A DNA stretch of 64,000 nt from Ideonella oryzae (GTDB taxonomy: Bacteria > Pseudomonadota > Gammaproteobacteria > Burkholderiales > Burkholderiaceae_C). Every line of letters starts with the position of its first letter. Position 1 is the first letter of the stretch. The position numbers were made by a program, and so were the translations under genes. Shown one piece after another: positions 3,432 through 15,863 of the stretch. The notes under the pieces were generated by a model. That model did not search any database and was not told the DNA's origin. It worked only from the letters and a program-made list of their open reading frames with translations. The stretch spans positions 1-64,000 of the forward strand of contig NZ_JAMXMC010000009.1 of the NCBI RefSeq assembly GCF_024055665.1, written 5' to 3'.

Positions 3432-4526
3432 TCAGTAAGGGGCCGTGGCGGTGGTGGCGCGGGCATGGGCGCCCACCGGCAGCGCGAAGAACTCGCGCAC
3501 CGCTGCCAGCGTGCGGTCGATGCCGGCTGCATCCACGTCCAGGTGGGTGACGAAGCGCAGGCCGATCAGCCCGGTGGCCAGGATGCCGCGCGCGGCCAGA
3601 TGCTCCAGCAGCACGGCCCCGCGGCCCTCGGCCACATCCACGAAGACGATGTTGGTCGAGGCGCTGCGCACGCTCAGGCCCTCGATGCCCGCCAGCCCCT
3701 GGGCCAGGCGCTGGGCCAGGGCGTGGTCATCGGCCAGGCGGGTCACATGGTGGTCCAGCGCGTGCAGGCCGGCCGCGGCCAGCAGCCCCACCTGGCGCAT
3801 GCCGCCGCCCAGCACCTTGCGCCAGCGGTGGGCCCGCTCGATCAACGCCTTGGAGCCGCACAGCACCGAGCCCACCGGCGCGCCCAGGCCCTTGCTGAGG
3901 CAGACCGAGACCGAATCGAACTCGGCCACGATGCGCCGGGCCGCGGCGTACGGGTCTCCGCCCGCCGCAGTGGCCACCGCCGCATTGAACAGGCGCGCCC
4001 CGTCCAGGTGGGTGGCCAGGCCGTGCTGGCGGGCCAGCGACGTGGCGGCGTCCAGGTAGTCCAGCGTCAGCGGCTGGCCGTTCCAGGTGTTCTCCAGGCA
4101 CAGCAGCTTGGTGCGGGCGAAATGCGGGTCGATGGGCTTGATGGCGCCGGCGATGTCGGCCAGCGCCAGCGTGCCGTCGGCCTGCTGCGGCAGGGGCTGC
4201 GGCTGGATGCTGCCCAGGATGGCCGCGCCGCCGCCTTCGTAGCGGTAGCAGTGCGCCATCTGCCCGGCCAGGTACTCGTCGCCGCGCTCGCAGTGGCTGA
4301 TCAGCGCCAGCAGGTTGCTCTGGGTGCCGCTGGAGACGAACAGCGCCGCCTCCTTGCCCAGCAGCGCGGCCAGATGCTCCTGCAGGCGGTTGACCGTGGG
4401 GTCATCGCCGAAGACGTCATCGCCCAGTTCGGCCGCCATCATGGCCTCGCGCATGGCGGCGGTGGGCCGGGTGACGGTGTCGCTGCGCAGGTCGACCGCG
4501 GGCGCCGGGTTGCTCACCGTGCTCAT
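3432..4526 (-). CDS. ltaE: Low-specificity L-threonine aldolase (PLP enzyme)
   Basis: Predicted to cleave L-threonine or allo-threonine to glycine and acetaldehyde. The 364-residue protein begins [12 protein letters not shown], the family signature, with [14 protein letters not shown] soon after. It carries [10 protein letters not shown], whose Asp contacts the PLP pyridine nitrogen, and [12 protein letters not shown], with the Schiff-base Lys near residue 206. The start ATG at 4524-4526 overlaps the trpG stop by 4 bases. The gene therefore sits inside the trp operon between trpG and trpD, which is not the canonical place. No sign of transfer in base composition is evident by eye. The role in the operon is unknown; glycine and serine metabolism feeds the Ser used by tryptophan synthase. 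Confidence 0.92.
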
Positions 4527-5122
4527 GCAGCCTCCTTCACGCGGCCCATGGCCAGGAAGTTGCGCAGCATCGCGTGACCATGCTCGGACAGGATGGACTC
4601 GGGGTGGAACTGCACGCCTTCCATCGGGGCATCGGTGGCGGCCAGCTCGGTGTGGCGCACGCCCATGATCTCGCCGTCCTCGGAGGTGGCGGTGATCTCC
4701 AGTTCGGCCGGCAGGCTGGCCCGCTCGATCACCAGCGAGTGGTAGCGGATCACGGTGAACTTCTCCGGCAGCTCGGCATAGACGCCGCGGCGGTCGGTGG
4801 TGATGACGCTGGTCTTGCCGTGCATCTGGGTGGCGGCGCGCACGATGCGCCCACCCATCGCCGCCCCGATGCTCTGGTGACCCAGGCACACGCCCAGGAT
4901 GGGCAGCTTGCCGACGAAGTGCCGGATGGCCGGCACGCAGATGCCGGCCTCGGCCGGCGAGCAGGGCCCGGGCGAGAGCACCAGGCGGTCGGGCCGCAAG
5001 CCCGCAATGCCTTCCAGGGTGATCTCGTCGTTGCGGACCACCTTCACTTCCTCGCCCAGCTCACTGAAGTACTGGACCAGGTTGAAGGTGAAGGAATCGT
5101 AGTTGTCGATCATCAACAGCAT
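4523..5122 (-). CDS. trpG: Anthranilate synthase component II (glutamine amidotransferase)
   Basis: Supplies ammonia from glutamine to TrpE; may also serve 4-amino-4-deoxychorismate synthesis. The 199-residue class I amidotransferase starts [18 protein letters not shown]. It has the oxyanion segment SPGPCSP, the nucleophile elbow [10 protein letters not shown] with Cys near residue 83, and the catalytic His-Glu in VQFHPESI. I place the start at 5120-5122, with GAGG six bases upstream; the ATG at 5113 is an alternative. TrpE lies 9.3 kb away, so the two subunits are transcribed from separate promoters. Confidence 0.95.
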
Positions 5123-5574
5123 GAGGAACCTCGCGCAGGGGACGGGCACGGACCGCACGCACGCGGCCAGGCACCGGAAACCAGATGGGGATGGAGGTGG
5201 CCAGGCACCTCCAGGGATGGGAGGCCGGCATCGGGCGGCACGGTCAGCACCTGCCCGCGGGTTGGCCGATCAGCCGTGGTGCGGGCGACGCCATCGCCCG
5301 CAGGGACCGGCCACGGCGCAGGCCATGTCGCAACGCCACGACGACGCGACGGCAAGGGTCGCGGAGGTCGGGCGGAGAGAGGCGTTCTCGGACATGGCCA
5401 GCAAGCAGTGTTTGCCGCCCATTATCCACATCCTGGCGCCATTGCAGGCCTGTCGGCCGGGGCCGTGGCATCCGTCACGGATTCGCCCACCCCGGAGACA
5501 ACGGACCTCACCGGACCTCATCGAGCCGCCGCCATCGCCGATAGCAGGTGGGAGAACCCCCACAGGAGACGCCC
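5123..5574. other. 452-base divergent intergenic region between trpG and a secreted-protein gene
   Basis: No gene with convincing coding features was found. On the minus strand GATAAT (5421-5426) is a possible -10 box for the trpG operon, with only a weak -35 (CTGCAA) and a leader near 290 nt. I looked for a Trp-codon leader here and found none. On the plus strand, CAGGAG eight bases before 5575 is the ribosome binding site of the next gene. A small 5-bp hairpin (5548-5563) sits just upstream of that site. Confidence 0.35.
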
Positions 5575-5991
5575 ATGCCCCGCCCCACCCGCTCTCAGGC
5601 CCTGCCCCGTCCCCGCGTCCTGCTGGCCGCCACGCTGCTGCCCCTGCTGGGCCTGTGGCTGGCCCGCCCCGCCCATGCGATGGAGGCCCTGGGCGACGCC
5701 GCCCTGACCGAGGTGCAGGCGGCCGGCTGGTCGGGTCTGCCGCTGTCGGTGGGCGACCTGGCTTCGGTCTCACAGCTTGCCGGTCCAGCCAGTTCCCGCG
5801 ATGGACTGCAGCAGGTCGACCGACAGGCGGCCTCCCTGCAGCAATTCAGCGCCAGCGTCGCGCTGCAAACCCAGCTGGCCGCTGCCCGGCGGGTGACCGC
5901 CCTGCCGATGCTGGCCTACGTCATGCCATCGGTGATCCCGGTGGTGGGGCTGCCGCTGGCCTTCTTCGTGCCGCCCGCCAGCCCACACTGA
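5575..5991 (+). CDS. Small secreted protein with the substrate-type N-terminal motif
   Basis: A 138-residue protein of unknown function. The N-terminus is a Sec signal peptide ending near AHA (residue 35). It is followed immediately by LGDAALTEVQA (residues 39-49), the same pattern seen in four secreted proteins of the opposing operon at 10165-13030. The rest is Ala/Leu/Gln-rich, and a hydrophobic Val/Pro/Leu-rich stretch (about residues 110-134) precedes the C-terminus, which could be a membrane or assembly segment. The ATG has a clear CAGGAG site. It is convergent with the DUF2059 gene, 31 bases away. Probably an orphan substrate of the adjacent export system; function is inference. Confidence 0.7.
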   Translation: MPRPTRSQALPRPRVLLAATLLPLLGLWLARPAHAMEALGDAALTEVQAAGWSGLPLSVGDLASVSQLAGPASSRDGLQQVDRQAASLQQFSASVALQTQLAAARRVTALPMLAYVMPSVIPVVGLPLAFFVPPASPH

Positions 5992-6022
5992 ATCGCCAGG
6001 AAGGCGAGGAGGACGCGCGCCT

Positions 6023-6661
6023 TCAGCGCGTCATCGCCGCGGCCCGCAGCTTGCCCGCCACCTCCTGCTTCATCTTGTCGAGCTGGGGCTGGATGGCCGG
6101 GCCGGCCCGGCGCGCCACATCGGCCCCCACCGCCCCCTCGATGTCCGGCGCGGCCTTCTCGAACTTCTGCCGCACCGGCGATTCGAGCAGCACGATCAGG
6201 GCCTTGAGCTCTTCCTCGCTGAACTGGTCGGCCAGCATCGGCACGGCTGTCGTCCGGACCGCCTGTTTGCCCGCGGCTTCGGCCAGCGGCGTGGCCGCGT
6301 CCACATAGGCCTTGGCGTCCTCGGCGATGCCCTTCATCGTCGACTCCAGCTTCTCGGCGCTGACCCGCCCTTGCAGGGCGATGCGGCTGTGCTGCACCGC
6401 TTCAGCCGCCGGGCGGTTGACCATCATCTGCGCCACCTGCTCCGGGTGCCACAAGGTCAGCAGCTTGTCGATCAAGGCCTGCTTGGCCGCGGAGACGACC
6501 GGGGGGGCCGCCGACGCCGCGCCGGCAGGCGCCCCAGCCGTGGCACTGGCGGGAGCGGCCCAGCCTGCCGGCGCCGCCAGCAGGAACAGGCTGGCCAGCG
6601 CCAGCCCGCGCCCCACACGTCGGGAAGAAGCCAGGGAAGAGGAATACTGCGTCAGAAACAT
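6023..6661 (-). CDS. DUF2059-type secreted protein
   Basis: A 212-residue exported protein of unknown molecular function. Residues 1-35 form a signal peptide (cleavage near GWA-AP), followed by an Ala-rich linker. An all-helical DUF2059-like domain then spans about residues 60-205: KQALIDKLLTLWHPEQVAQMM, then FSEEELKALIVLLESPVRQKFE. The segment around FSEEEL and SPVRQKFE is the best-known DUF2059 feature. It is the last gene of the minus-strand operon, 37 bases after the FadL-like gene. A periplasmic helper role in the export system is a guess from position only. Confidence 0.75.
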   Translation of the reverse strand: MFLTQYSSSLASSRRVGRGLALASLFLLAAPAGWAAPASATAGAPAGAASAAPPVVSAAKQALIDKLLTLWHPEQVAQMMVNRPAAEAVQHSRIALQGRVSAEKLESTMKGIAEDAKAYVDAATPLAEAAGKQAVRTTAVPMLADQFSEEELKALIVLLESPVRQKFEKAAPDIEGAVGADVARRAGPAIQPQLDKMKQEVAGKLRAAAMTR

Positions 6662-6698
6662 GGGTGCACTGCAAAAAAGGCGGCCGCTCCCACCGGGG

Positions 6699-8306
6699 TC
6701 AGAACGGCCGGGTGACGCTCACGCCGAAGTAGCGCAAGCGGGTCTCGCCGGACACATCCAGTCCGGCGTACGGGTTGTAGATGACGTTGAAGAAGTTGGT
6801 GCAGTTGAGGTTGCAGCTGCCGTCGGCAGGCACGTTGTAGCGGCCCTTGGCCAGGCTGGCCGCCACGATCAGCTGCGTGCCGTCCTCGGTGGTCCAGTTC
6901 AGCCCCAGGCTGCGCACCTTCATGTCAGGCAGGGGCGCGATCAGGTCGATCTTGTCCTGCGGAATGGAGCTCTTGCGAGGCTCATAACCCAGGCGCAACT
7001 TCAGTCCTTGCATGACCTCGATCTCGGCGCCGTAGCCGAAGTGCCAATTGCTGCGGTAGCCCCGCGGAATGACAAGCTTGCTCGCATCGGCCTGGCCGAA
7101 GAGCCGGGCCATCTGCAGGAAGCGGACCTGCTGGTCGAACTGGAAGGTCAGCTCCTTCCACTGCCCCCAGTCGGTCCAGTTGGCGTCCACGTTGAACTGC
7201 AGCCGCTCCACCGGTTTGACCTTGACCCCCACCTGAACATGCGGCGGGAAAGGCAGCACCAGCGTCATGTTGCCGGACTGCTCTTCGGGGATGCTGGTCG
7301 GAAAACCCAGCGTGGCCGCCACGATGGGACCCTGCAGCGACGAATACATGCCCTGCACCAGCTTGCGGAACATGGGTTCGGCGTGAAAGTTGTAGCGCCC
7401 GGTCAGCACGGTGCGCGAGCCGCTCTGGTACACCGCGCCCAGGCCGAACCAGTCGGTCGGCTCCCACAGAGCCCCTACGTTGAAGGTGGGGTCGGCCGGG
7501 GCCGTCGCCTCGAAACGCATGGATCCGGCGGTGGTGTAGGGGTTGAGCCGCCCTTCCTTGCCGCCGCCGCAAATGCCGAAACCGAAGACGTCCAGCGGAT
7601 TGCCGTTGTCGCCGCACCAGGCATCCTGCAGCTTGCCGAAGATGCCGATCAGCTTGTTCGGAAAGCGCATGTCGGTGTCCAGCGCAAAGCCCTGGTGGGC
7701 GATGGGCACCGAGAGGCCCACACTGAACTCGTCCGAGAACTTGTAGGCCACCGAGGGCGAGGCATAGACCAGGCGCTGGATCACCACCCGCTTGCCCTGG
7801 AAGCGCCCCGGGTCATCGGGGTTCTTGCTGCGGTCGAAGCCCACGGCCTGCGGCACGTAGACCGCGGTGGCAAAGGTCCAGGGCGAGCCGGGCTGGTTCA
7901 GCGAGATGCCCAGGCCCGCCGCCGCCACGAAGGGCAGGCGCCAGTTGGGCACACCCGCCAGCGGCAGGAACAGGGTCTGGCGGTTGTGGTCCGACACCAT
8001 GCCATCCAGGGGATCCTGGGTGAAGCCGCCAATGTCATAGCCTTCCGGCTGATGGAACTCGCTGCGCATGCGCAGGCTGGCGCCGAAGACCGTGTCCTCG
8101 CGCACCCGCCCCTCCAGCCGGGTCAGGCCCGCCGGGTTGAAGTGCACCGCATCCAGGCCCTGGGGATCGGCCGTCACCGCATTGCCCATGGACATGGCCG
8201 CCGGACTGACCGCCAGGTTCTCGGTCAACGCGGCCCGCGCCCCGGGCAGCAGCGACAGCGTCAGCAGGCCCCAGGCGGCCCGCCGCCACGCACGCACCAT
8301 CCCCAT
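6699..8306 (-). CDS. FadL/OmpP1-family outer-membrane barrel
   Basis: A 535-residue outer-membrane protein. A signal peptide (cleavage near ARA-AL) precedes LAVSPAAMSMGNAVTA and VHFNPAGLTRL. These are the FadL-type N-terminal hatch features (gly-asn and FNPAGL). Alternating amphipathic strands follow, ending in the C-terminal barrel signature VSVTRPF with terminal Phe. Two Cys-rich loops (DAWCGDNGN...ICGGG and CNLNCTN) are probably surface loops. FadL proteins move hydrophobic molecules across the outer membrane. Here the gene is inside a secretion-type operon, as I recall for the Acinetobacter fil cluster, so a role in fibre assembly or substrate uptake are both possible. Confidence 0.85.
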   Translation of the reverse strand: MGMVRAWRRAAWGLLTLSLLPGARAALTENLAVSPAAMSMGNAVTADPQGLDAVHFNPAGLTRLEGRVREDTVFGASLRMRSEFHQPEGYDIGGFTQDPLDGMVSDHNRQTLFLPLAGVPNWRLPFVAAAGLGISLNQPGSPWTFATAVYVPQAVGFDRSKNPDDPGRFQGKRVVIQRLVYASPSVAYKFSDEFSVGLSVPIAHQGFALDTDMRFPNKLIGIFGKLQDAWCGDNGNPLDVFGFGICGGGKEGRLNPYTTAGSMRFEATAPADPTFNVGALWEPTDWFGLGAVYQSGSRTVLTGRYNFHAEPMFRKLVQGMYSSLQGPIVAATLGFPTSIPEEQSGNMTLVLPFPPHVQVGVKVKPVERLQFNVDANWTDWGQWKELTFQFDQQVRFLQMARLFGQADASKLVIPRGYRSNWHFGYGAEIEVMQGLKLRLGYEPRKSSIPQDKIDLIAPLPDMKVRSLGLNWTTEDGTQLIVAASLAKGRYNVPADGSCNLNCTNFFNVIYNPYAGLDVSGETRLRYFGVSVTRPF

Positions 8307-8319
8307 CTCCGTGGCCCGC

Positions 8320-9375
8320 TCAGAAGTTCAGCGGCATGTTCATGCCGAGGCTGAAGTCCGGGGAGTCGGAGGTCAGGCCCACGCCCGCGGTGAAGTTCAG
8401 CGTGGTCTTGGGTGACACCCGCAGGCCCAGACCCAGGTTCAACATGCCCGAGGTCTGCATCGCCGTCTTGGAACTGGTGCCATCGGCAAACTTCAGCGTG
8501 CTGCGGGCCGAGACCGTTTCCTGCAGCGACATGGTGGTGGACACCTTGTAGGACAGCGCATAGGAAAAGCCCATGCCGAAGCCGATGCTCGAGCCCGGCC
8601 GCACCTCGGTCAGGGTCATGCCGTCGCGTTGCTGGCTGAGGTTGCGCGCCGGCAGGTTGCCGGTGAAGTTCAGCGAGCCGAACACCGCCACCGGGTCGTA
8701 GACCTGGGAGGCATTCACCCCCACCGTCAGTGCGGTGTTGCCCGAGCCGGTGGCCAAGTTCTGCCCGACGATGGTGGTGTACGGGCTGCGGCCGGTGGGC
8801 AGGCGCAGTGTGGCCGTGGTGGTGAAGATGGCGCTGTCGCGGCGCTGCTCGAAGGGCTGGTAACGCACCCCCAGCGCAATGTCCCCCAGGCCATTGGACA
8901 GGCCGCTGAAGTTGTTGCTCTGCGAATAGCGGCTGATCAGCGGCAGGGAGGCGGTGGCTGTCAGGTTGTCCAGCACCCCATAGTCCACCGCGAAGGTGTT
9001 GGTGATGGTGTGGGCCCGCGTGTTCTGGATGTCGAACAGGGTCAGGGTGCTGTCGGTGAACTTGACGTTGATCGTCTCGCTGCCGATGTAGCTGTAGTTC
9101 AGGTCGTAGGTGAGCGCCGTCTGCCCCGTCTTGAGCAGCGAGTAGGCCTTCTCGGCGGACGTCAGCGTCTCCTTGAGCAACTGGTCCTGGCTGACATCGC
9201 CCTCCTTGGTCTTGAGGGCATCGCGGGCCGCGTCAGCGCCAGAGGCCGGCGTGGCCGGGGGCGGCGGTTCGGACTGCGCCACAGCAGAAGCGGCCAGGCC
9301 GGCCAGCATCAGGCCCAGCAGGGCGGAGGACGACACGCGGGCGGTGCGGCGGGCGGGGGGGACTGCAGTGTTCAT
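8320..9375 (-). CDS. FapF-like outer-membrane barrel with N-terminal helical plug
   Basis: A 351-residue predicted outer-membrane channel. A signal peptide ends near AVAQ (residue 34). A Pro/Ala linker and a charged helical segment (about residues 45-80, KTKEGDVSQDQLLKETLTSA) come next. A beta-barrel then begins at TALTYDLNYSYIGSE, rich in alternating strands, and ends in MPLNF with terminal Phe. A helical plug before a 12-strand-type barrel is the FapF architecture of Pseudomonas functional-amyloid export; FapF is longer (about 430 residues). The barrel also resembles the broad phenol-degradation 'MetA' transporter family. It overlaps the C39 peptidase gene by 4 bases, matching the FapD/FapF pairing. 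Confidence 0.65.
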   Translation of the reverse strand: MNTAVPPARRTARVSSSALLGLMLAGLAASAVAQSEPPPPATPASGADAARDALKTKEGDVSQDQLLKETLTSAEKAYSLLKTGQTALTYDLNYSYIGSETINVKFTDSTLTLFDIQNTRAHTITNTFAVDYGVLDNLTATASLPLISRYSQSNNFSGLSNGLGDIALGVRYQPFEQRRDSAIFTTTATLRLPTGRSPYTTIVGQNLATGSGNTALTVGVNASQVYDPVAVFGSLNFTGNLPARNLSQQRDGMTLTEVRPGSSIGFGMGFSYALSYKVSTTMSLQETVSARSTLKFADGTSSKTAMQTSGMLNLGLGLRVSPKTTLNFTAGVGLTSDSPDFSLGMNMPLNF

Positions 9376-10136
9376 GGACGGCGGAGGAAGAGAGAGCCCA
9401 AGCCCTGTTGCACGGCGCGCTCCAGGGCTTCCTTGTTGGGCGAGGGACCGAGTCGCACGGACTCGCGGATCTGGTCGTCGGCGACGACCCCCATCTCGGT
9501 GTCGGTCAGTGCCAGCTTGCGGGGCACCGGCGCGTCACCGGGCGGGTAGATGAGGAACAGGGTGTTGCGGTCCCACAGCGAGGCGAACTCCTCCTGTGAC
9601 AGCACCAGATGTCCCATGGCGGGGTCGGCCAGGAAGACGCGCCCGTCGCGCAGACCGCGAAAGACCACGAAGTGCTTGAAGCCCGCATAGTCGATCGGCA
9701 CGATGGCCGGGTCCTTCAGCGCCGCCAGGTCCGAGAGCTCGCCTCGAAAGCCGGCGCTCTTGCTGCCCAGCGTGGCGACATAGCGCTTCATGTCCAGCAG
9801 CGAAAAGCCGCGCCGGGCCACGATCTTGTCGCTCTCGCCATAGGTCAGCATGCCTTCCATGGCCTGCTGCTCGGTCACCTCGTAGCCCAGGTGGTAGCGC
9901 AGCACCGTGGTCAGCGCGGCCGAACCGCAGCTGTAGTCGTAGGCCTGGTGAACGATGTTGTCGAACTTGAATTCGCTCTGCGGCCGCAGCGCCACCTGCT
10001 CAGGCGCCACGCCGCCGCCCACCGCGTTCATCGGCAGGGTCACCTGCTCTTTGGGCTGGTCCTGGGGTTCGATGCGGGACAGCAGCCCGCTGCCCGCGAT
10101 GGCGGAGGCCAGCACCCCCAACAGAATCATCCACAT
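9372..10136 (-). CDS. C39-family cysteine peptidase (FapD/FilB-like)
   Basis: A 254-residue protein with a hydrophobic N-terminus (residues 1-20), which would place the enzyme in the periplasm or anchor it there. The C39 papain-like core is intact: Gln64 as oxyanion residue, Cys70 in YDYSCGSAAL, His155 in GFKHFVVFRG and Asp171 in LADPAMG. C39 domains remove double-glycine leaders from bacteriocins. Stand-alone secreted versions occur as FapD in functional-amyloid operons and FilB in the Acinetobacter fil cluster. A C-terminal extension (about residues 205-254) is not part of the peptidase core. It lies between the substrate-like genes and the FapF-like channel, so it probably processes or chaperones the fibre proteins. 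Confidence 0.85.
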   Translation of the reverse strand: MWMILLGVLASAIAGSGLLSRIEPQDQPKEQVTLPMNAVGGGVAPEQVALRPQSEFKFDNIVHQAYDYSCGSAALTTVLRYHLGYEVTEQQAMEGMLTYGESDKIVARRGFSLLDMKRYVATLGSKSAGFRGELSDLAALKDPAIVPIDYAGFKHFVVFRGLRDGRVFLADPAMGHLVLSQEEFASLWDRNTLFLIYPPGDAPVPRKLALTDTEMGVVADDQIRESVRLGPSPNKEALERAVQQGLGSLFLRRP

Positions 10137-10164
10137 CGTTCGCTCGTCTCTTCCGTCTTGAGGA

Positions 10165-10650
10165 TCACCGGGCCCACAGCAGCACCCGACCGGTCATTGC
10201 GCCGCTGCCATTGAGCGTGATGCCGCCCAGGCTGGCGGCCGTGTTGAGCGGGGCGGTCGGGTCGGACTGGACCGAGATGGCCCGCACACCGAAGTCGTCG
10301 AAGCCCACGAAGCTGGGCAGGCCCAGCGCCAGCTGGCTCGTGCCATCCGATGCGGTGACGGCGTTGAGCGTGACGGCGTACAGATCCATGATCCCGCCCA
10401 CGCCGTACATCACCAGGTAGCTGGGTTGGGCCGCGTCGCCGAAGGCGGCGGCCAGGTTGGGCATGGGGGTGGCCCCCTGGAGCAGGCTGCTGTTGAGCTC
10501 GAGGTGCACGCCCACGCCAAAGCCGGCCCCGCGCACTTCCGACAGGGCGGCATCGTCCAGTGCCAGCGGCGCGGCCCGGCTGACGCCGACCAGGGTCAGC
10601 AGCAGGGCCGTCGACAGGCCGTTGCGCAACAGCAGCGGGGTGCGGCCCAT
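10165..10650 (-). CDS. Secreted fibre-subunit-like protein (DUF6160-type N-terminus)
   Basis: A 161-residue exported protein with no recognised enzymatic motif. A signal peptide ends near SRA (residue 26) and is followed by LDDAALSEVRG (residues 31-41), the motif shared by all putative substrates here. The rest is beta-rich and low in Lys. The C-terminus VLLWAR resembles the last residues FWLWAH of the major subunit-like protein at 12473, suggesting a shared C-terminal signal. The ATG at 10648-10650 is chosen because it lies 1 base past the upstream stop. It lies 28 bases upstream of the C39 gene. Confidence 0.75.
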   Translation of the reverse strand: MGRTPLLLRNGLSTALLLTLVGVSRAAPLALDDAALSEVRGAGFGVGVHLELNSSLLQGATPMPNLAAAFGDAAQPSYLVMYGVGGIMDLYAVTLNAVTASDGTSQLALGLPSFVGFDDFGVRAISVQSDPTAPLNTAASLGGITLNGSGAMTGRVLLWAR

Positions 10651-10651
10651 G

Positions 10652-11530
10652 TCAGTTCCCCGGCCGCAGCCGCATGTCCAGGTAGTTGATCTGGAAGCTG
10701 CTGATGCGGCTGCTGCCCAGGTCCATCGCACCGTTGACGTTGCTGTCGAAGCGCACGTTGTCGATCAGCAGACCGGCCTTGGCGGCTCCGGCCTCGGCGC
10801 TGCTCCAGTCCACCTTCAGCTGCAGCACCTGACCGCCCTGCCCGTCCCCGATGACCTGCAGCACGGCCGGCTGGCTGGTGACATCGGCCAGGGCCCAGGG
10901 CTGCTGGGTGAAGTTGCCGTTGTCGTCCACGGCACCCAGATGGATGCCGCTGAGCGTCAGCGCTTCGCTGCCATCGTCCCGCCCGCGGGCCCGCCAGGAG
11001 AGCGCACCCAGGTCGGCCCGCAAGGCCACGCCCAGCAACACGCCGGAGCCGCTGCCGCTGCCCGGTTCGGTGCTCATCTGCACGCCCCCGCCGTACAGCG
11101 CCAGGTCCTGCACCACCAGCGCCCCCAGCGCCTGCGTGTTGCCCCCGGCGGGCGTCACCGACAGATCGGCCGCCGCCTGCCAACGCTGCAGCCCTGCCGC
11201 GTTCTGCGGCAAGTCGAGATGCAGCACGTCGGCCAGGCCATTGCCCCGCCGCTGGATCCACAGGGCATACGGATCGTCCAGCAGATGGTCGGGATCGTCC
11301 GAGCGCGACAGGGCCAGATCGCCCAGCTTCAGGGTCGAGCCGTCCGGCGAGCGGTAGGTCAGGCTCAGCTGGCCGGAGAGGGAGAAGTTCTGCAGATTGA
11401 AGTAGAAGCCGTCGCGCCCCTGCACGGCGGCCAGGTCGCGCTCGCTGAGCGCCTCCATGGCCAAGGCAGGGGCCTGGCCGCACAGGGCCAGGAACATCCC
11501 CAGCAGGGCAAACGGCAAGCGCGACAGCAT
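10652..11530 (-). CDS. Secreted protein with substrate-type N-terminus (DUF6160-like)
   Basis: A 292-residue exported protein. A signal peptide ends near ALA (residue 24). The motif LSERDLAAVQG then spans residues 28-38, followed by RDGFYFNLQNFSLSG. The body is predicted beta-rich with repeated short strands (LSLTYR, LKLGDLALS, LQVIGDGQ, FQINYLDMRL). The start is ATG 11528-11530, or an overlapping GTG one codon upstream; either overlaps the previous stop (GTGATG arrangement), indicating translational coupling. Function unknown; likely a fibre or accessory component. Its C-terminus lacks the LWA[HR] ending found in two of its neighbours. Confidence 0.75.
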   Translation of the reverse strand: MLSRLPFALLGMFLALCGQAPALAMEALSERDLAAVQGRDGFYFNLQNFSLSGQLSLTYRSPDGSTLKLGDLALSRSDDPDHLLDDPYALWIQRRGNGLADVLHLDLPQNAAGLQRWQAAADLSVTPAGGNTQALGALVVQDLALYGGGVQMSTEPGSGSGSGVLLGVALRADLGALSWRARGRDDGSEALTLSGIHLGAVDDNGNFTQQPWALADVTSQPAVLQVIGDGQGGQVLQLKVDWSSAEAGAAKAGLLIDNVRFDSNVNGAMDLGSSRISSFQINYLDMRLRPGN

Positions 11531-12339
11531 CACGGCCCCTTGCCGGTGTTGGGCGGCACGGTGCCGGTCGTGTTCAACGCGCTCAGGCGGTCGCGCCAGT
11601 TGAGCCAGACGCCGGCCTGTGCGGTGTCCGGCGCCGCCAGGCCCGCCACCAGGCTGGGGTAGTTGACGGCCTGGTTCTGGATGGCCAGGAAGAAGTCGCG
11701 GCTGGCTCCATCGGCCGTGCCGGCATGCAGGCCACCGATCTGCGACAGGGCCAGGGTGCAGCTGGCGCTGCTGACGCAGGTGGTGCCGTCCCAGCGCTTG
11801 CCGCCCAGCGTGTCGTTGCGCGAGTCGACAGTGCCGGCCGCACCGGCATCGATCAGCAGGCTGCCGCTGACCACGTTCATCGTGGTGCCCACATCGCCGC
11901 TGATGCCGCCAAAACCGAAGCGCATGCCCACCACCTGCTGGCTGCTGCCACTGCCGGAGGTGACGAACTCGAAGTACGGGTCGGTGATGCTGACCGTGCG
12001 CTGCGCGGCCGTGCCGTCGCTGCGGCCAAAGCGCAGGGTGCCGATGTCGATGTCAGCCCCCGTGGCGTTGCGCGGAGACCTGGCGTACTCGCCCAGACGC
12101 AGGCCGTTGAAATTGGCCGACAGGGAGATGTCTGCCCCCAGCGTGAGCCGGGTGAAGTCCATGCCCTGGTAGTTGGTGGTGGCGAGGCTCAGCAGGGCCT
12201 GGCCCCAGGTGTCCGACAAGGCGGCATCGTCCAGGGGCTCGGCGGCCAGCGCCGGCCCGCAGACCAGCACGCCCAGCATCAGCCCGGCCACCACATGCCG
12301 CCCGACACACGCTGTTGCATTGAGGAGACAACTCGACAT
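11530..12339 (-). CDS. Secreted protein with substrate-type N-terminus (DUF6160-like)
   Basis: A 269-residue exported protein. The signal peptide ends near ALA (residues 30-32). It is followed by LDDAALSDTWG (residues 36-46), a variant of the shared motif with Thr-Trp in place of Val-x. The body has Asn- and Gly-rich strands (DISLSANFNGLRLGEY, MRFGFGGISGDVGTT) and one Cys pair (CVSSASC). The start is ATG 12337-12339 with a GAGG site eight bases away; a GTG one codon upstream is possible. It is the first gene after a pair of strong hairpins, so its expression is probably set lower than that of the gene at 12473. Confidence 0.75.
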   Translation of the reverse strand: MSSCLLNATACVGRHVVAGLMLGVLVCGPALAAEPLDDAALSDTWGQALLSLATTNYQGMDFTRLTLGADISLSANFNGLRLGEYARSPRNATGADIDIGTLRFGRSDGTAAQRTVSITDPYFEFVTSGSGSSQQVVGMRFGFGGISGDVGTTMNVVSGSLLIDAGAAGTVDSRNDTLGGKRWDGTTCVSSASCTLALSQIGGLHAGTADGASRDFFLAIQNQAVNYPSLVAGLAAPDTAQAGVWLNWRDRLSALNTTGTVPPNTGKGP

Positions 12340-12367
12340 CACAAACGCCTCGCCCCATGTAAAACAC

Positions 12368-12393
12368 GCCCGCACAGCGCTCACCGTGCGGGC
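12368..12393 (-). terminator. Hairpin with short T run inside the fibre operon
   Basis: The 8-bp perfect stem GCCCGCAC/GTGCGGGC has a 10-nt loop. In the minus-strand direction it is followed by GTGTTTTAC, a weak U-tract. It looks like a leaky intrinsic terminator downstream of the abundant first gene. Confidence 0.5.
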
Positions 12394-12396
12394 CTG

Positions 12397-12437
12397 GCAC
12401 CGCCGACACCGGGCGAGTGGCCCGGTGTCGGCGGTGC
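12397..12437 (-). promoter_or_regulatory. Perfect 17-bp stem-loop between first and second fibre genes
   Basis: Positions 12397-12413 and 12421-12437 form a perfect 17-bp GC-rich stem with a 7-nt loop (CGAGTGG). It lies 35 bases past the stop of the 12473-13030 gene. It has no T run of its own, but a second hairpin with a short T run follows at once. Such structures in pilin-type operons protect the 3' end of the major-subunit mRNA and reduce read-through; that role here is inference. Confidence 0.65.
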
Positions 12438-12472
12438 AACTGGAGACTGGATTCAGCCGATCAGAAGACCGA

Positions 12473-13030
12473 TCAGTGGGCCCAGAGCCAGAACTTGCTG
12501 CCTTGCATGTCGATGTTGTTGATGGCCACCGAGCCGAAGGACTTGTTGCCCACGCTGTTGCCCATCGTGATCGAGCCAACGGTCACGCTCGGCGCCAGCT
12601 TGCTGTCCAGGTTGGCGTTCGGGAAGGCGAACTGAACGACGTCGGAAGCACCGTCGTACACGCCGTTGGTCACCAGGTTGGTCAGGTTGGTGCCGACATC
12701 GGCCGGCGCGATGTACTTGGCCATCGAGGTGGCGACGGCGTTGACGAAGGTGCCAGCGGTGCCGGCATCGCCCGCCTTCAGGATGTCGATGGTCATGACG
12801 AACATGCCCTTCACACCGATGTTGTTGAAGGACACGGAACCGCCGGTCGTGTCGGTGTCGGTGTACTGGAAGCTGCCGATGTTGATGTTCAGGTCACCAG
12901 CGATGGACACGCCGTCCTGGCCGCTGACGGTGGACAGGGCGTCGTCTTCGATGGCGGTCATGGCCGAAGCGGACAGGGCCAGGGCCGACAGGGTGGTGGC
13001 CAGGGCGGCCGCGCGCAGTGCGAATTTCAT
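12473..13030 (-). CDS. Likely major secreted subunit (FilA/DUF6160-like)
   Basis: A 185-residue exported protein and first gene of the operon. The signal peptide is 23 residues (cleavage near ASA-MT), followed by [11 protein letters not shown] (residues 27-37) and QDGVSI. The mature part is beta-rich, with Asn, Gly, Thr and Ser abundant. It has repeated strand-turn units ([36 protein letters not shown]), and the C-terminus is FWLWAH. There is a strong AGGAGA site six bases before the ATG. Strong translation signals and hairpins just downstream suggest it is the most abundant product. It resembles FilA of the Acinetobacter fil cluster; whether it forms amyloid or another fibre cannot be decided from sequence. 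Confidence 0.75.
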
Positions 13031-13079
13031 GCTTGTCTCCTAAATATGCGTTGTGGGATCAGGTCGCCAATCTCGCCAG

Positions 13080-13115
13080 AACTCCGGGGTGTTGGCCTGT
13101 CGAAATCGCGGAGTT
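13080..13115. promoter_or_regulatory. Inverted repeat upstream of the fibre operon
   Basis: The arms AACTCCG (13080-13086) and CGGAGTT (13109-13115) form a 7-bp dyad with a 22-base spacer. It is centred about 67 bases upstream of the first fibre gene and between that gene and the AraC-type gene. It is a candidate operator. Confidence 0.35.
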
Positions 13116-13226
13116 GATCTTCGGCGCGCAGCCCCTGCGCTGCACTGGCCGCAGCGGCCAAGCTCATGGCTTCAACGACCCATTGGGAAAGGTCCCGAGA
13201 GGGTTGCTACCAAGGAGCGCGCACCC

Positions 13227-14228
13227 TCAGGGCGCGCAGCGGAACTCGCTGGGCGAGCAGCCGAACCAGCGCTTGCAAGCGCGGTAGAAGGTGCTGGGAT
13301 CGGCAAAGCCCAGCGCGAAGCTGACCTCGGTGGGCGTGGCGCCACCGGCCTCCAGCAGACGGCGTGCGGTCTCGCGCCGGGTCTCGTCCACCAGGTCCTG
13401 GAAAGAGGTGCCCTGGTCGCTCAGATGGCGCTGCAGCGTGCGCTCGCTCATCCGCAGCTCGGCGGCCACCTGCTCGCGCCGCGGATCACCGCGCGAAAGC
13501 TGTCGGGCAATGACCTCGCGCACACGCGCCACCAGGCTGCCGCCCTGCTGCGCGATCAGCCGCTCGGCCAACTGCTCGCTGAGGTCGGCAATCATCGGGT
13601 CGGCCGTGGGCACCGGCATGTCCAGCAGGCGGCGCGGAAAGTCCATGGCATAGACCGCCGCGCCAAACTGCACCGGCGCGCCGTAGGCCTTCTCCCAGGG
13701 ACCGGTGTCGGCGGGAGCGGGAAAGGGGCAACTGACCTGCTCGGGCAGCATCTGCTGGCCCAGCAGCCACCAGATGCCCTGCAGCACGGTGTAGGCCATG
13801 AAGTCATAGCGCTGCGAGGCTGCCGGCCGCGCACCGGGCGAGACCTCCACGCCCACCCGCACCTGGTGCTCGGTGAGCTGCACGCTCATCGCGGTGGTGG
13901 GCGAGATGACGCCGGTGAAGCGCTCGAGCCGCTGCAGTGCAGTGCGGATGTCCGGTGCAGCCATCACCAGGTGCGCCATGCCGCCCAGCCCGATCATGGG
14001 CTGGCGGGGTGTCATGCGCAGGCCGATGGCCGGGTCCTGGGTGCGGGCCACCGCGTGTCGCCAGGCGGCGTCGAACAGATCGGCCAGGGTCTCGGCCGGC
14101 AGCACCGCGTCCAGCGAGCCCATGCCGCCCTCTCCGAGCAGAAAGGCGTCCAGATCCAGACCACAGCGGGAGAAGCCATCATGCATGGCGCGATAAGCGC
14201 ACAGCTGCCGCAATGGAAGGGTGTTCAT
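13227..14228 (-). CDS. AraC-family transcriptional regulator (OruR/VirS-like)
   Basis: A 333-residue DNA-binding regulator. Residues 20-200 resemble the arabinose-binding-like domain of the OruR/VirS group (LGGMAHLVMAAPDIRTALQRL, FMAYTVLQGIWWLLG). Residues 235-333 are the double helix-turn-helix: LRMSERTLQRHLSDQGTSFQ and then VSFALGFADPSTFYRACKRWFG. The ATG at 14226-14228 has a GGAG site. It lies 196 bases upstream of the first fibre gene on the same strand, so it is the best local candidate to control the operon. That link is inference. Confidence 0.88.
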   Translation of the reverse strand: MNTLPLRQLCAYRAMHDGFSRCGLDLDAFLLGEGGMGSLDAVLPAETLADLFDAAWRHAVARTQDPAIGLRMTPRQPMIGLGGMAHLVMAAPDIRTALQRLERFTGVISPTTAMSVQLTEHQVRVGVEVSPGARPAASQRYDFMAYTVLQGIWWLLGQQMLPEQVSCPFPAPADTGPWEKAYGAPVQFGAAVYAMDFPRRLLDMPVPTADPMIADLSEQLAERLIAQQGGSLVARVREVIARQLSRGDPRREQVAAELRMSERTLQRHLSDQGTSFQDLVDETRRETARRLLEAGGATPTEVSFALGFADPSTFYRACKRWFGCSPSEFRCAP

Positions 14229-14273
14229 GCCGACTCCGGAAGACGCCACCCGCCGCCAACATCACGGCGGGCC

Positions 14274-14387: not shown

Positions 14388-15863
14388 TCAGAAGCCTTCT
14401 TCGACCAACTCGGCCGCGCGGATCAAGGCGCGCGCCTTGACCTCGGTCTCGCGCCATTCCATCTCGGGCACCGAGTCGGCCACGACGCCGGCAGCCGCCT
14501 GCACGTACAGCGTCTGGTTCTTGACGATGCCGGTGCGGATGACGATGGCGACGTCCATGTCGCCGGCAAAGCTCAGGTAGCCGCAGGCACCGCCGTAGAT
14601 GCCGCGCTGCACGGGCTCCAGCTCGTCAATGATCTCCATCGCGCGGATCTTGGGCGCGCCGCTGAGCGTGCCCGCCGGGAAGGAGGCCTTGAGCACGTCC
14701 AGGTTGCTCATGCCGTCCTTGAGAAGCCCCTCGACGTTGCTGACGATGTGCATCACGTGCGAGTAACGCTCGATCGCGAAGGCCTCGGTCACCTTGACCG
14801 AACCGGTCTTGGCGATGCGGCCCACATCGTTGCGCGCCAGGTCGATCAGCATCACGTGCTCGGCACGCTCCTTGGGGTCGGCCAGCAGTTCGGCCTCCAG
14901 GGCCTTGTCGGCCTCGGGCGTGGCACCGCGCGGCCGGGTGCCGGCGATCGGGCGGATGATGACCTTCTCGCCCTCGGGCGTGTGCTCGTGACGCACCAGG
15001 ATCTCCGGCGAGGAGCCGACGATCTGGAAGTCCCCCATGTCGTAGAAATACATGTAGGGGCTGGGGTTGAGCGAACGCAGCGCGCGGTACAGGCTCAGCG
15101 GACTCTCGGTGTAGCGCTTCTGCAGACGCTGGCCGACGACAATCTGCATGCAGTCGCCCGCGGCGATGTAGTCCTTGGCCTTCTGCACCGCGGCCTCGAA
15201 ATCCGCCTTGGCGAACTCGCGCTCCTCCGCGTAGCTGGGGCCACGCTTCACGGCCGGCGCGGTCACGCTGTAGCGCAGCTTGTCGGTCAGGTCGGCCAGG
15301 CGACGCTTGGCGTTGAAGAAGGCCTCCGGGCGCGACGGATCGGCCCAGACGATCAGGTAGAGCCGGCCCGACAGGTTGTCGATGACGGCCAGTTCCTCGG
15401 TCTGCAGCAGCAGCAGGTCGGGTGTGCCGATGCCGCCGGGCTTGGTGGTGTGCGCCAGCTTCTTCTCGATGAAGCGCACCGTGTCGTAGCCGAAGTAGCC
15501 CGCCAGCCCGCCGCAGAAGCGCGGCAGCCCCGGCGGCAGCGCCGGCTTGAAGCGGGCCTGGTACTCGGCAATGAAGTCCAGCGGGTTGCCTTCGTGCACC
15601 TCCACCACCTGGCCGTCGGTGACGACCTCGGTGCGCGGGCCGGTGGCGCGCAGCAACGTGCGCGCGGGCAGGCCGATGAAGGAATAGCGGCCGAAGCGCT
15701 CGCCGCCGACGACCGACTCCAGCAGGAAGCTGTGCGGCTGGCCACCGGCCAGCTTCAGGTACAGCGACAGCGGGGTTTCCAGGTCGGCAAAGGCCTCGGT
15801 GATCAGGGGGATGCGGTTGTAGCCCTGAGCGGCCTGGCTCTTGAATTCGAGTTCGGTGATCAC
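14388..15863 (-). CDS. trpE: Anthranilate synthase component I
   Basis: Converts chorismate and ammonia to anthranilate. The 491-residue protein has the N-terminal tryptophan-binding element [18 protein letters not shown], with LLES being the feedback-inhibition segment. The chorismate-binding core contains [40 protein letters not shown] and [18 protein letters not shown]. The start is a GTG (15861-15863) with AGGAGA seven bases upstream. A Trp-rich leader peptide lies 109 bases upstream. It is followed by its own terminator, so it is a single-gene unit separated from trpG by 9.3 kb. Confidence 0.96.

Follow-up and report, generated by a model that had tools for sequence, protein, structure and literature searches.

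A Fil-type putative pilus operon of Ideonella oryzae and a candidate post-Sec leader in its secreted subunits

The 64,000-nucleotide stretch analysed here, hereafter the window, comprises positions 1 to 64,000 of contig NZ_JAMXMC010000009.1 (assembly GCF_024055665.1) from Ideonella oryzae. The operon at 5575-14228 of this window is a betaproteobacterial form of the Fil putative pilus system; it encodes a C39 cysteine peptidase (FilB), a predicted FapF-fold outer-membrane channel (FilC), a FadL-like protein (FilD) and four secreted subunits (S1-S4), with a fifth secreted protein (S5) on the opposite strand. In all five secreted proteins a 12-residue segment with the spacing of a double-glycine (C39) leader lies a few residues behind the signal peptide. 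We consider it likely that FilB is a periplasmic leader peptidase and that this segment is the post-Sec sorting signal it acts upon. In the proposed pathway S1-S5 would reach the periplasm by Sec, where signal peptidase would expose the segment as a mimic of a double-glycine leader. FilB would bind it there, as cytosolic C39 domains bind bacteriocin leaders, and remove it after position -1. The shortened subunits would then exit via FilC, with help from FilD, and S4 would polymerise into the pilus. Sequence or structure supplies the gene set, the modelled FapF fold of FilC, the intact catalytic residues of FilB, the conserved leader, the joint occurrence of DUF6160 and close FilB, and the +1 start of a deposited pilus chain; FilB as the cutting enzyme, FilC as the exporter and the roles of FilD, the DUF2059 protein, S1-S3 and S5 are what we infer.

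S4, the 9xfv filament and a candidate second leader

The features that carry this proposal are as follows (E, expectation value).

12473..13030, minus strand: S4, candidate major pilus subunit (DUF6160, FilA-like; PF19657 E 2.5e-21; 9xfv_A E 1.5e-45)
12917..12952, minus strand: leader of S4, positions -12 to -1
11530..about 12339, minus strand: S3, secreted subunit, start placed by eye; leader LDDAALSDTWGQ at 12199-12234, with Thr at -4
10652..11530, minus strand: S2, secreted subunit; leader LSERDLAAVQGR at 11414-11449; weak matches to FilA (E 0.024) and DUF6160 (E 0.0059)
10165..10650, minus strand: S1, secreted subunit; leader LDDAALSEVRGA at 10525-10560
5575..5991, plus strand: S5, fifth secreted protein; leader-like LGDAALTEVQAA at 5689-5724; homologue in the same place in Ideonella genome G001
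9372..10136, minus strand: FilB, C39 cysteine peptidase (NF050078 E 9.9e-72; FapD E 3.7e-36; PF03412 E 2e-18)

S4 comprises a signal peptide (residues 1-23, by eye), the leader (27-38) and a mature part from Asp39. It scores 76.2 bits against the DUF6160 model PF19657 (cut-off 27) and 26.5 bits against the FilA model, below that model's cut-off of 220. It has a relative of solved structure in PDB entry 9xfv, deposited as 'bacteria pilus (like)' from a karst cave sample, with 25 chains of one sequence. S4 and 9xfv_A match closely by sequence, with chain residue 1 aligned to Asp39, such that the chain starts exactly at leader position +1. The match by fold is E 5.7e-14 with a template modelling (TM) score of 0.44-0.46, obtained with a modest S4 model (mean predicted local distance difference test score, pLDDT, 70.1). 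Moreover, the S4 orthologue of Ideonella genome G005 is identical to 9xfv_A over 173/173 residues. The G005 locus runs trpE, AraC, S4, S3, S2, S1, FilB, FilC, FilD, DUF2059, trpG, the order seen in the window. Because of this identity, at least one fil locus of Ideonella codes for a protein found as a filament, and its homologue, S4 of the window, is by the same token a probable pilus subunit. The initial annotation had proposed surface-fibre secretion; that proposal now stands on firmer ground, S4 belonging to the family of a solved pilus-like filament and FilC being predicted to fold like FapF. A match to 9xfv is also seen for a FilA-like protein of Pseudomonas guguanensis (E 3.7e-5). The accessible portions of the openly licensed PMC literature yielded no published description of the 9xfv pilus.

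The residues ahead of the chain start are conserved among the homologues. In the G005 protein the residues directly before 9xfv_A residue 1 are ...STLSTVSGQ. Among 82 distinct homologues of 9xfv_A (drawn from 100 of 112 hits, the other 12 being dropped as their alignments start after chain residue 3), the two preceding residues are GQ in 71 and GR in 11, and in all 82 position -12 is hydrophobic, -10 is Asp and -7 is Leu or Met. Asp(-10), Gly(-2) and Gly(+2) never vary across 31 aligned S4-family sequences, and Leu(-7), Val(-4) and Asp(+1) seldom do. The five window proteins follow the same register: all have hydrophobic residues at -12 and -7 and Gly or Ala at -2, and four have a hydrophobic residue at -4 (the exception is S3). 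Signal peptides were called by a simple script and by eye rather than with a trained predictor. The published C39 leader consensus is L(-12)xxxE(-8)L(-7)xxxxG(-2)G(-1), with position -4 conferring specificity; the leader helix from -10 to -4 docks on the peptidase, whose cleft is narrow (PMC6959990). No published description of such a leader in secreted subunits was found in the accessible portions of the openly licensed PMC literature, covering periplasmic C39 peptidases, FapD/FapE, Fil and DUF6160. Beyond the leader the other subunits offered few leads: S1 and S3 have no significant family match (longer frames scanned), S2 and S3 have no PDB match, and a PDB search with a profile of the N-terminal motif (profile A1) returned nothing of use.

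The N-terminus of FilB is a signal peptide or anchor (by eye), and the C39 domain of LahT (6mpz) matches the protein at E 6.8e-7. Alignment to C39 domains places Cys70, His155 and Asp171 as the catalytic residues and Gln64 at the oxyanion position; the four are invariant in ten aligned FilB sequences, that of the window included, in keeping with the intact Cys-His-Asp triad first noted from the window sequence. As a separate observation, the position following Cys-Gly is usually Ala where the neighbouring FapE protein has RGR or RGK (exception L122), and usually Ser where the neighbour has RGG and in Fil; this trend could be specificity or mere ancestry. A second C39 domain occurs in the genome of the window (G000, C3:106401-106787) inside a 734-residue open frame, which is probably an ABC exporter.

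Leader, peptidase and competing explanations

To ask how far the leader exceeds chance, Sec-like open reading frames (ORFs) were picked first and only then searched for a strict leader, with shuffled mature N-termini as the null. The strict motif was found in 35 of 183 Sec-like ORFs from 17 Fil loci (shuffle mean 0.49), in 25 of 509 from 43 loci of more distant C39 peptidases (shuffle mean 1.25), and in none of 178 from 20 control regions (shuffle mean 0.55). Four of the 35 matches in Fil loci look false (three FilD and one other chance match), and the counts are not independent because many Fil loci are related. A looser pattern gave 41 matches in Fil loci, 59 beside distant C39 peptidases and 16 in controls, or 1.88, 1.16 and 0.67 per 10 kb.

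An independent test comes from the Pfam model DUF6160, which others built for N-termini of this kind. Of the 369 genomes in the class sample it occurs in six, and these six alone have FilB at E <1e-60; weaker FilB-model matches (best 9.8e-40) without DUF6160 occur in 50 more. In the order of genome G197, DUF6160 and FilB (E 7.8e-58 or lower) occur in the same six of nine genomes, and among 200 Burkholderiales genomes DUF6160 occurs in five, four of which have a close FilB. Within the sample of 60 relatives, profile A1 (E up to 1e-4) detects six genomes, the same six with FilB at E <1e-60; three of these (G001, G008 and G013) contributed no row to the profile.

The motif-bearing proteins are not confined to the operon. 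Of the 39 DUF6160 matches listed for the class sample, 33 sit on a different contig from filB or over 15 kb away from it, and in G197 and G310 they are spread over many contigs. Part of this separation may be an artefact of assembly, given the shortness of some contigs (in G310 and G069 filB is close to a contig end). We extracted 30 of the 39 proteins by taking the ORF near each match with the best motif score (the L024 frame proved wrong, L025 is a neighbouring ORF and L026 is weak), and 29 show the segment after the signal peptide. Clustering of the 30 mature parts (blastp E 1e-3) gave 25 groups, the misread L024 being one. In I. benzenivorans, likewise, a motif-bearing protein lies on another contig (L180). 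The motif-bearing proteins thus share little sequence otherwise and many are encoded away from filB; we propose, from these sequence comparisons, that the leader is a sorting signal rather than a domain.

Several observations weigh against FilB as the peptidase that removes this leader. The motif patterns were written after the first matches had been seen, and the looser one still yields its 16 matches in the 20 control regions. The strict scan found no motif ORF in eight of 80 named loci, although one of these, L253, shows two by eye. One of the 200 Burkholderiales genomes (G565, in 680 contigs) has DUF6160 matches and no FilB match. Three of the six positive Ideonella genomes (G000, G005 and G009) had supplied rows to profile A1, which also finds weak matches (4e-4 to 0.01) in ten further genomes of the 60. 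The preference of known C39 enzymes at -1 is for Gly, Ala or Ser; here that residue is Gln or Arg in S2, S3 and S4 (Ala in S1 and S5), and Gln or Arg in 81% of 151 distinct motifs collected with a pattern that leaves -1 free. On the enzyme side, the two PCAT1 residues of the hydrophobic knot fare differently in a MAFFT alignment: A55 has its counterpart in a Leu, but I59 mostly in a Lys where an aliphatic residue would be expected; the HMMER alignment of FilB to the C39 domain places its gaps differently. The start of 9xfv_A at Asp may reflect a disordered leader alone. Finally, mass spectrometry of the Fap system found FapA-D unprocessed, with complete N-terminal processing for FapE only (PMC5557850). 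Because of the Gln or Arg at -1, the Lys at the knot position and the possible disorder before the chain start, recognition of the leader by FilB is likelier than cleavage of any particular bond.

The same points feed the most serious alternative, in which the segment is a tag that FilB binds without cutting, as inactive C39-like domains do, or that FilC or FilD reads, and which stays on the subunit as a disordered stretch in the fibre. The misfit of Gln or Arg to known C39 specificity, and a chain start in the cryo-electron microscopy structure that could simply be the first ordered residue, would both suit an uncut tag. FilB nevertheless keeps its catalytic residues in all ten aligned sequences, and FapC secretion needs the FapD cysteine (PMC5557850). 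Moreover, of the roughly 15 starts available from the signal-peptide site (by eye) to Asp39, the chain takes exactly the one that fits the C39 register. We regard this alternative as improbable.

A further explanation makes the leader a pro-segment that a different protease, or the subunit acting on itself, cuts off, in the manner of the protease-activated type V pili of Bacteroidota; FilB would then have its target elsewhere, for example in the N-terminal linker of FilC. Model confidence for FilC is low over residues 30-61, and PMC5557850 raises the possibility that FapD cuts the FapF linker. This explanation leaves two facts unaccounted for, namely the C39-leader spacing of the segment and the genome-by-genome co-occurrence of DUF6160 with close FilB even though many of the motif proteins are encoded at a distance from filB; we consider it very unlikely.

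FilC, FilD and the trp setting of the locus

The remaining genes of the locus and its borders are as follows.

14388..15863, minus strand: trpE, upstream border
13227..14249, minus strand: AraC-type gene, QhpR-like (QhpR model 203 bits, cut-off 250; PF12625, PF12833)
8320..9375, minus strand: FilC, FapF-fold outer-membrane channel by structural prediction (NF050079 E 1.1e-79)
6699..8306, minus strand: FilD, FadL/OmpP1-like outer-membrane protein (NF050080 E 8.5e-131; PF03349 E 6.7e-45)
6023..6661, minus strand: DUF2059 protein, signal peptide by eye (PF09832 E 6e-6)
4523..5158, minus strand: trpG, downstream border

FapF chains match FilC residues 162-350 by sequence (E about 2e-18), and the NCBIfam FapF model matches it at E 5.4e-23. 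In its AlphaFold model (39 sequences, mean pLDDT 76.7) FilC has the FapF fold: a Foldseek search ranks 18 FapF chains first, with TM 0.81-0.87 by target length, followed by the COG4313 channel 4rl8. The initial annotation had described a FapF-like plug-and-barrel, and would have given up the fibre reading had this barrel lacked a plug and clustered with unrelated phenol-type transporters, with the secreted proteins staying periplasmic. The model does not point that way: the barrel is upheld and FapF chains are its closest matches by fold; for the plug, a helix is predicted at residues 63-74, before the first strand, with low confidence (pLDDT about 58). A phenol-type transporter was also considered as the identity of FilC and rejected, as PF13557 barely reaches its cut-off and the closest fold is FapF. 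Distant FilC relatives at L076 and L078 have N-terminal extensions that resemble, by eye, an OmpA-type peptidoglycan-binding domain.

From the trpE side the minus-strand genes run AraC-type gene, S4, S3, S2, S1, FilB, FilC, FilD, DUF2059 gene, and S5 is a plus-strand gene with the same kind of N-terminus as S1-S4. The order first read from the window (subunits, C39 peptidase, channel, FadL-like barrel, DUF2059 protein) holds, with each of FilB, FilC and FilD recognised by its own Fil profile and the FadL-like assignment of FilD borne out by PF03349 as well. The close packing described there, with overlaps of 1-4 bases joining many genes, does not: only two of seven junctions overlap (S3/S2 by 1 base, FilB/FilC by 4 bases), S2/S1 is a 1-base gap and the remaining gaps are at least 13 bases. 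A promoter scan found none; seven terminator-like sites were counted, where shuffled sequence averaged 3.7.

The fil block lies between trpE and trpG, and comparison within Ideonella confirms the earlier suggestion that the operon sits inside the trp region. The trpE-trpG distance is 8.7-9.6 kb in four fil-positive genomes (G000, G001, G005, G013) and within 90 bases in six fil-negative genomes (G002, G003, G004, G011, G012, G015). Of the other six of the 16 Ideonella, two are fil-positive and either contig-split or without a trpG match, and four are fil-negative with different spacings or with trpE and trpG on separate contigs. Elsewhere, a TrpE-like gene stands on the opposite strand near the fil genes in 29 of 34 loci (L230-L263), possibly pabB or the gene of a different chorismate enzyme.

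When named genomes were scanned with a FilB alignment, 576 stretches were confirmed, of which the best 80 were kept. These derive from Ideonella, Roseateles, Massilia, Duganella, Rugamonas, Pseudoduganella, Pseudomonas, Marinobacter, Moraxellaceae and others. A gene-neighbourhood search for the same set had been suggested at the outset, and the set recurs: 78 of the 80 have FilB, FilC and FilD together, and 44 of the 46 loci L184-L229 have three or more of S1-S4 near the fil genes (exceptions L188, with none, and L201, with S4 only). In the same 46 loci the DUF2059 protein of the window has a match in 44 and the AraC-type gene in 40. FilD, the DUF2059 protein and the AraC-type gene are assigned to the system through this conserved neighbourhood, and the AraC-type gene probably regulates the operon. 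Close FilB homologues occur in six of 369 genomes of the class, four of 200 of the order and six of the 16 Ideonella among the relatives. The range of the fil operon is broad but patchy.

Comparison with Fil, Fap and bacteriocin export systems

The Fil system of Acinetobacter (filA-F; NF050077-NF050080) is the nearest known relative. The window has homologues of FilB, FilC and FilD, adjacent and in the same order, and S4 has the FilA/DUF6160 N-terminus, much as the initial annotation had supposed in comparing the subunit N-termini and the FadL-like gene with the fil cluster. S1-S3, S5, the DUF2059 gene and the AraC-type gene are additional. FilA has previously been reported as a cell-surface fibre protein of Acinetobacter sp. 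Tol 5 (PMC11784438). All three window proteins score below the NCBIfam cut-offs (FilB 241.6 of 475, FilC 268.5 of 630, FilD 436.9 of 970 bits), these models being typed 'exception', and the FilB cut-off is passed by no genome of the 369, 200, 60 or 9 searched. The FilE and FilF models match none of the ten window proteins scanned, the rest of the genome lying outside that search.

The Fap system of Pseudomonas (FapA-F) shares with the window a C39 peptidase beside a FapF-fold channel, and the early comparison of this pair with FapD-FapF is well founded. The pair itself is not new, since PMC6173800 already describes fapD and fapF homologues lying together in further phyla. The same paper gives FapF a periplasmic coiled coil; a long one is not evident in FilC, and the window system has the extra FadL-like protein. 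A true Fap functional amyloid, or the Fap/Fil hybrid or intermediate first suggested, would account for the FapF fold of FilC and the FapD match of FilB, yet is most improbable, as the Fil models outscore the Fap models for both proteins, the FapB, FapC and FapE models (all three among those searched) match none of the ten window proteins scanned, an S4 relative is deposited as a pilus-like structure and the Fil gene set recurs across loci. Because of the higher Fil scores and that recurrence, we read the operon as a recurrent Fil form and not a hybrid.

The leader register may nonetheless extend to Fap. An ORF beside the distant C39 peptidases often shows the same register, including true double glycines, e.g. 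VSHEELDQMRGG (L100). In 27 of 43 such loci (the L094 match is doubtful) a loose-motif ORF lies on the peptidase strand no more than 300 bases away, compared with 12 of 403 large ORFs in control regions. FapE-like proteins beside C39 peptidases show the register with RGR or RGK; the L097 protein reaches E 9.4e-35 against the FapE model, short of its cut-off. A search for FapE in ten named genomes found it in one, P. panipatensis (L264, above the cut-off), where LSDQEMSQLRGR stands a few residues after the signal peptide with the same leader spacing. The complete N-terminal processing reported for FapE alone (PMC5557850) fits a leader reading for that protein. Two FapB-like proteins (L108, L117) have a similar segment, which need not be cut given that FapA-D are reported unprocessed. 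As further observations, small secreted proteins beside C39 peptidases have, after the signal peptide, a true double-glycine segment with RGG at its end and then mostly Phe (L093, L096, L098, L099, L100, L102, L105, L107, L109, L110, L113, L114, L132 and L133); these are perhaps FapE-like and good substrates for testing. A further C39 branch (L127, L129), with no FilC match in the fetched stretch, has small secreted neighbours with LSDQEMKNTEGA or LSHDEMQKTEGE.

The substrate of FapD is stated as unknown, its target in FapC secretion as unclear, and the Fap proteins as lacking canonical C39 sequences, in print (PMC5557850, PMC6173800). A leader register shared by Fil subunits, FapE and related proteins would offer a concrete site to test for FapD-kind peptidases. 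We see an even balance for and against a general two-step export route in Gram-negative bacteria, in which Sec export is followed by reading of a double-glycine-type leader by a periplasmic C39 peptidase of the FilB/FapD kind and handover to a FapF-fold channel. One peptidase would then serve many unrelated, scattered proteins, mature a distinct class of pilus in Fil loci and, in Fap, act on FapE-type proteins as the missing FapD substrates. The subunits thus seem to bear one N-terminal tag behind another, and the likeness of the second to a recognition sequence for the neighbouring peptidase suggests an answer to the long-standing question of how such fibres mature. The leader also provides a sequence tag for listing candidate substrates of these systems from genomes, and the orphan environmental pilus structure 9xfv is now tied to its operon.

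Set beside the bacteriocin exporters (PCAT1, LahT), the window subunits share the leader spacing at -12, -7, -4 and -2, and FilB shares the catalytic residues and the oxyanion Gln. For PCAT1 and LahT substrates, changes at -7 and -12 are reported to lower cleavage. Unlike those enzymes, FilB would act after Sec, in the periplasm, and is not fused to an ABC transporter; its leaders mostly end in Gln or Arg at -1, and the cargo would be whole pilus subunits.

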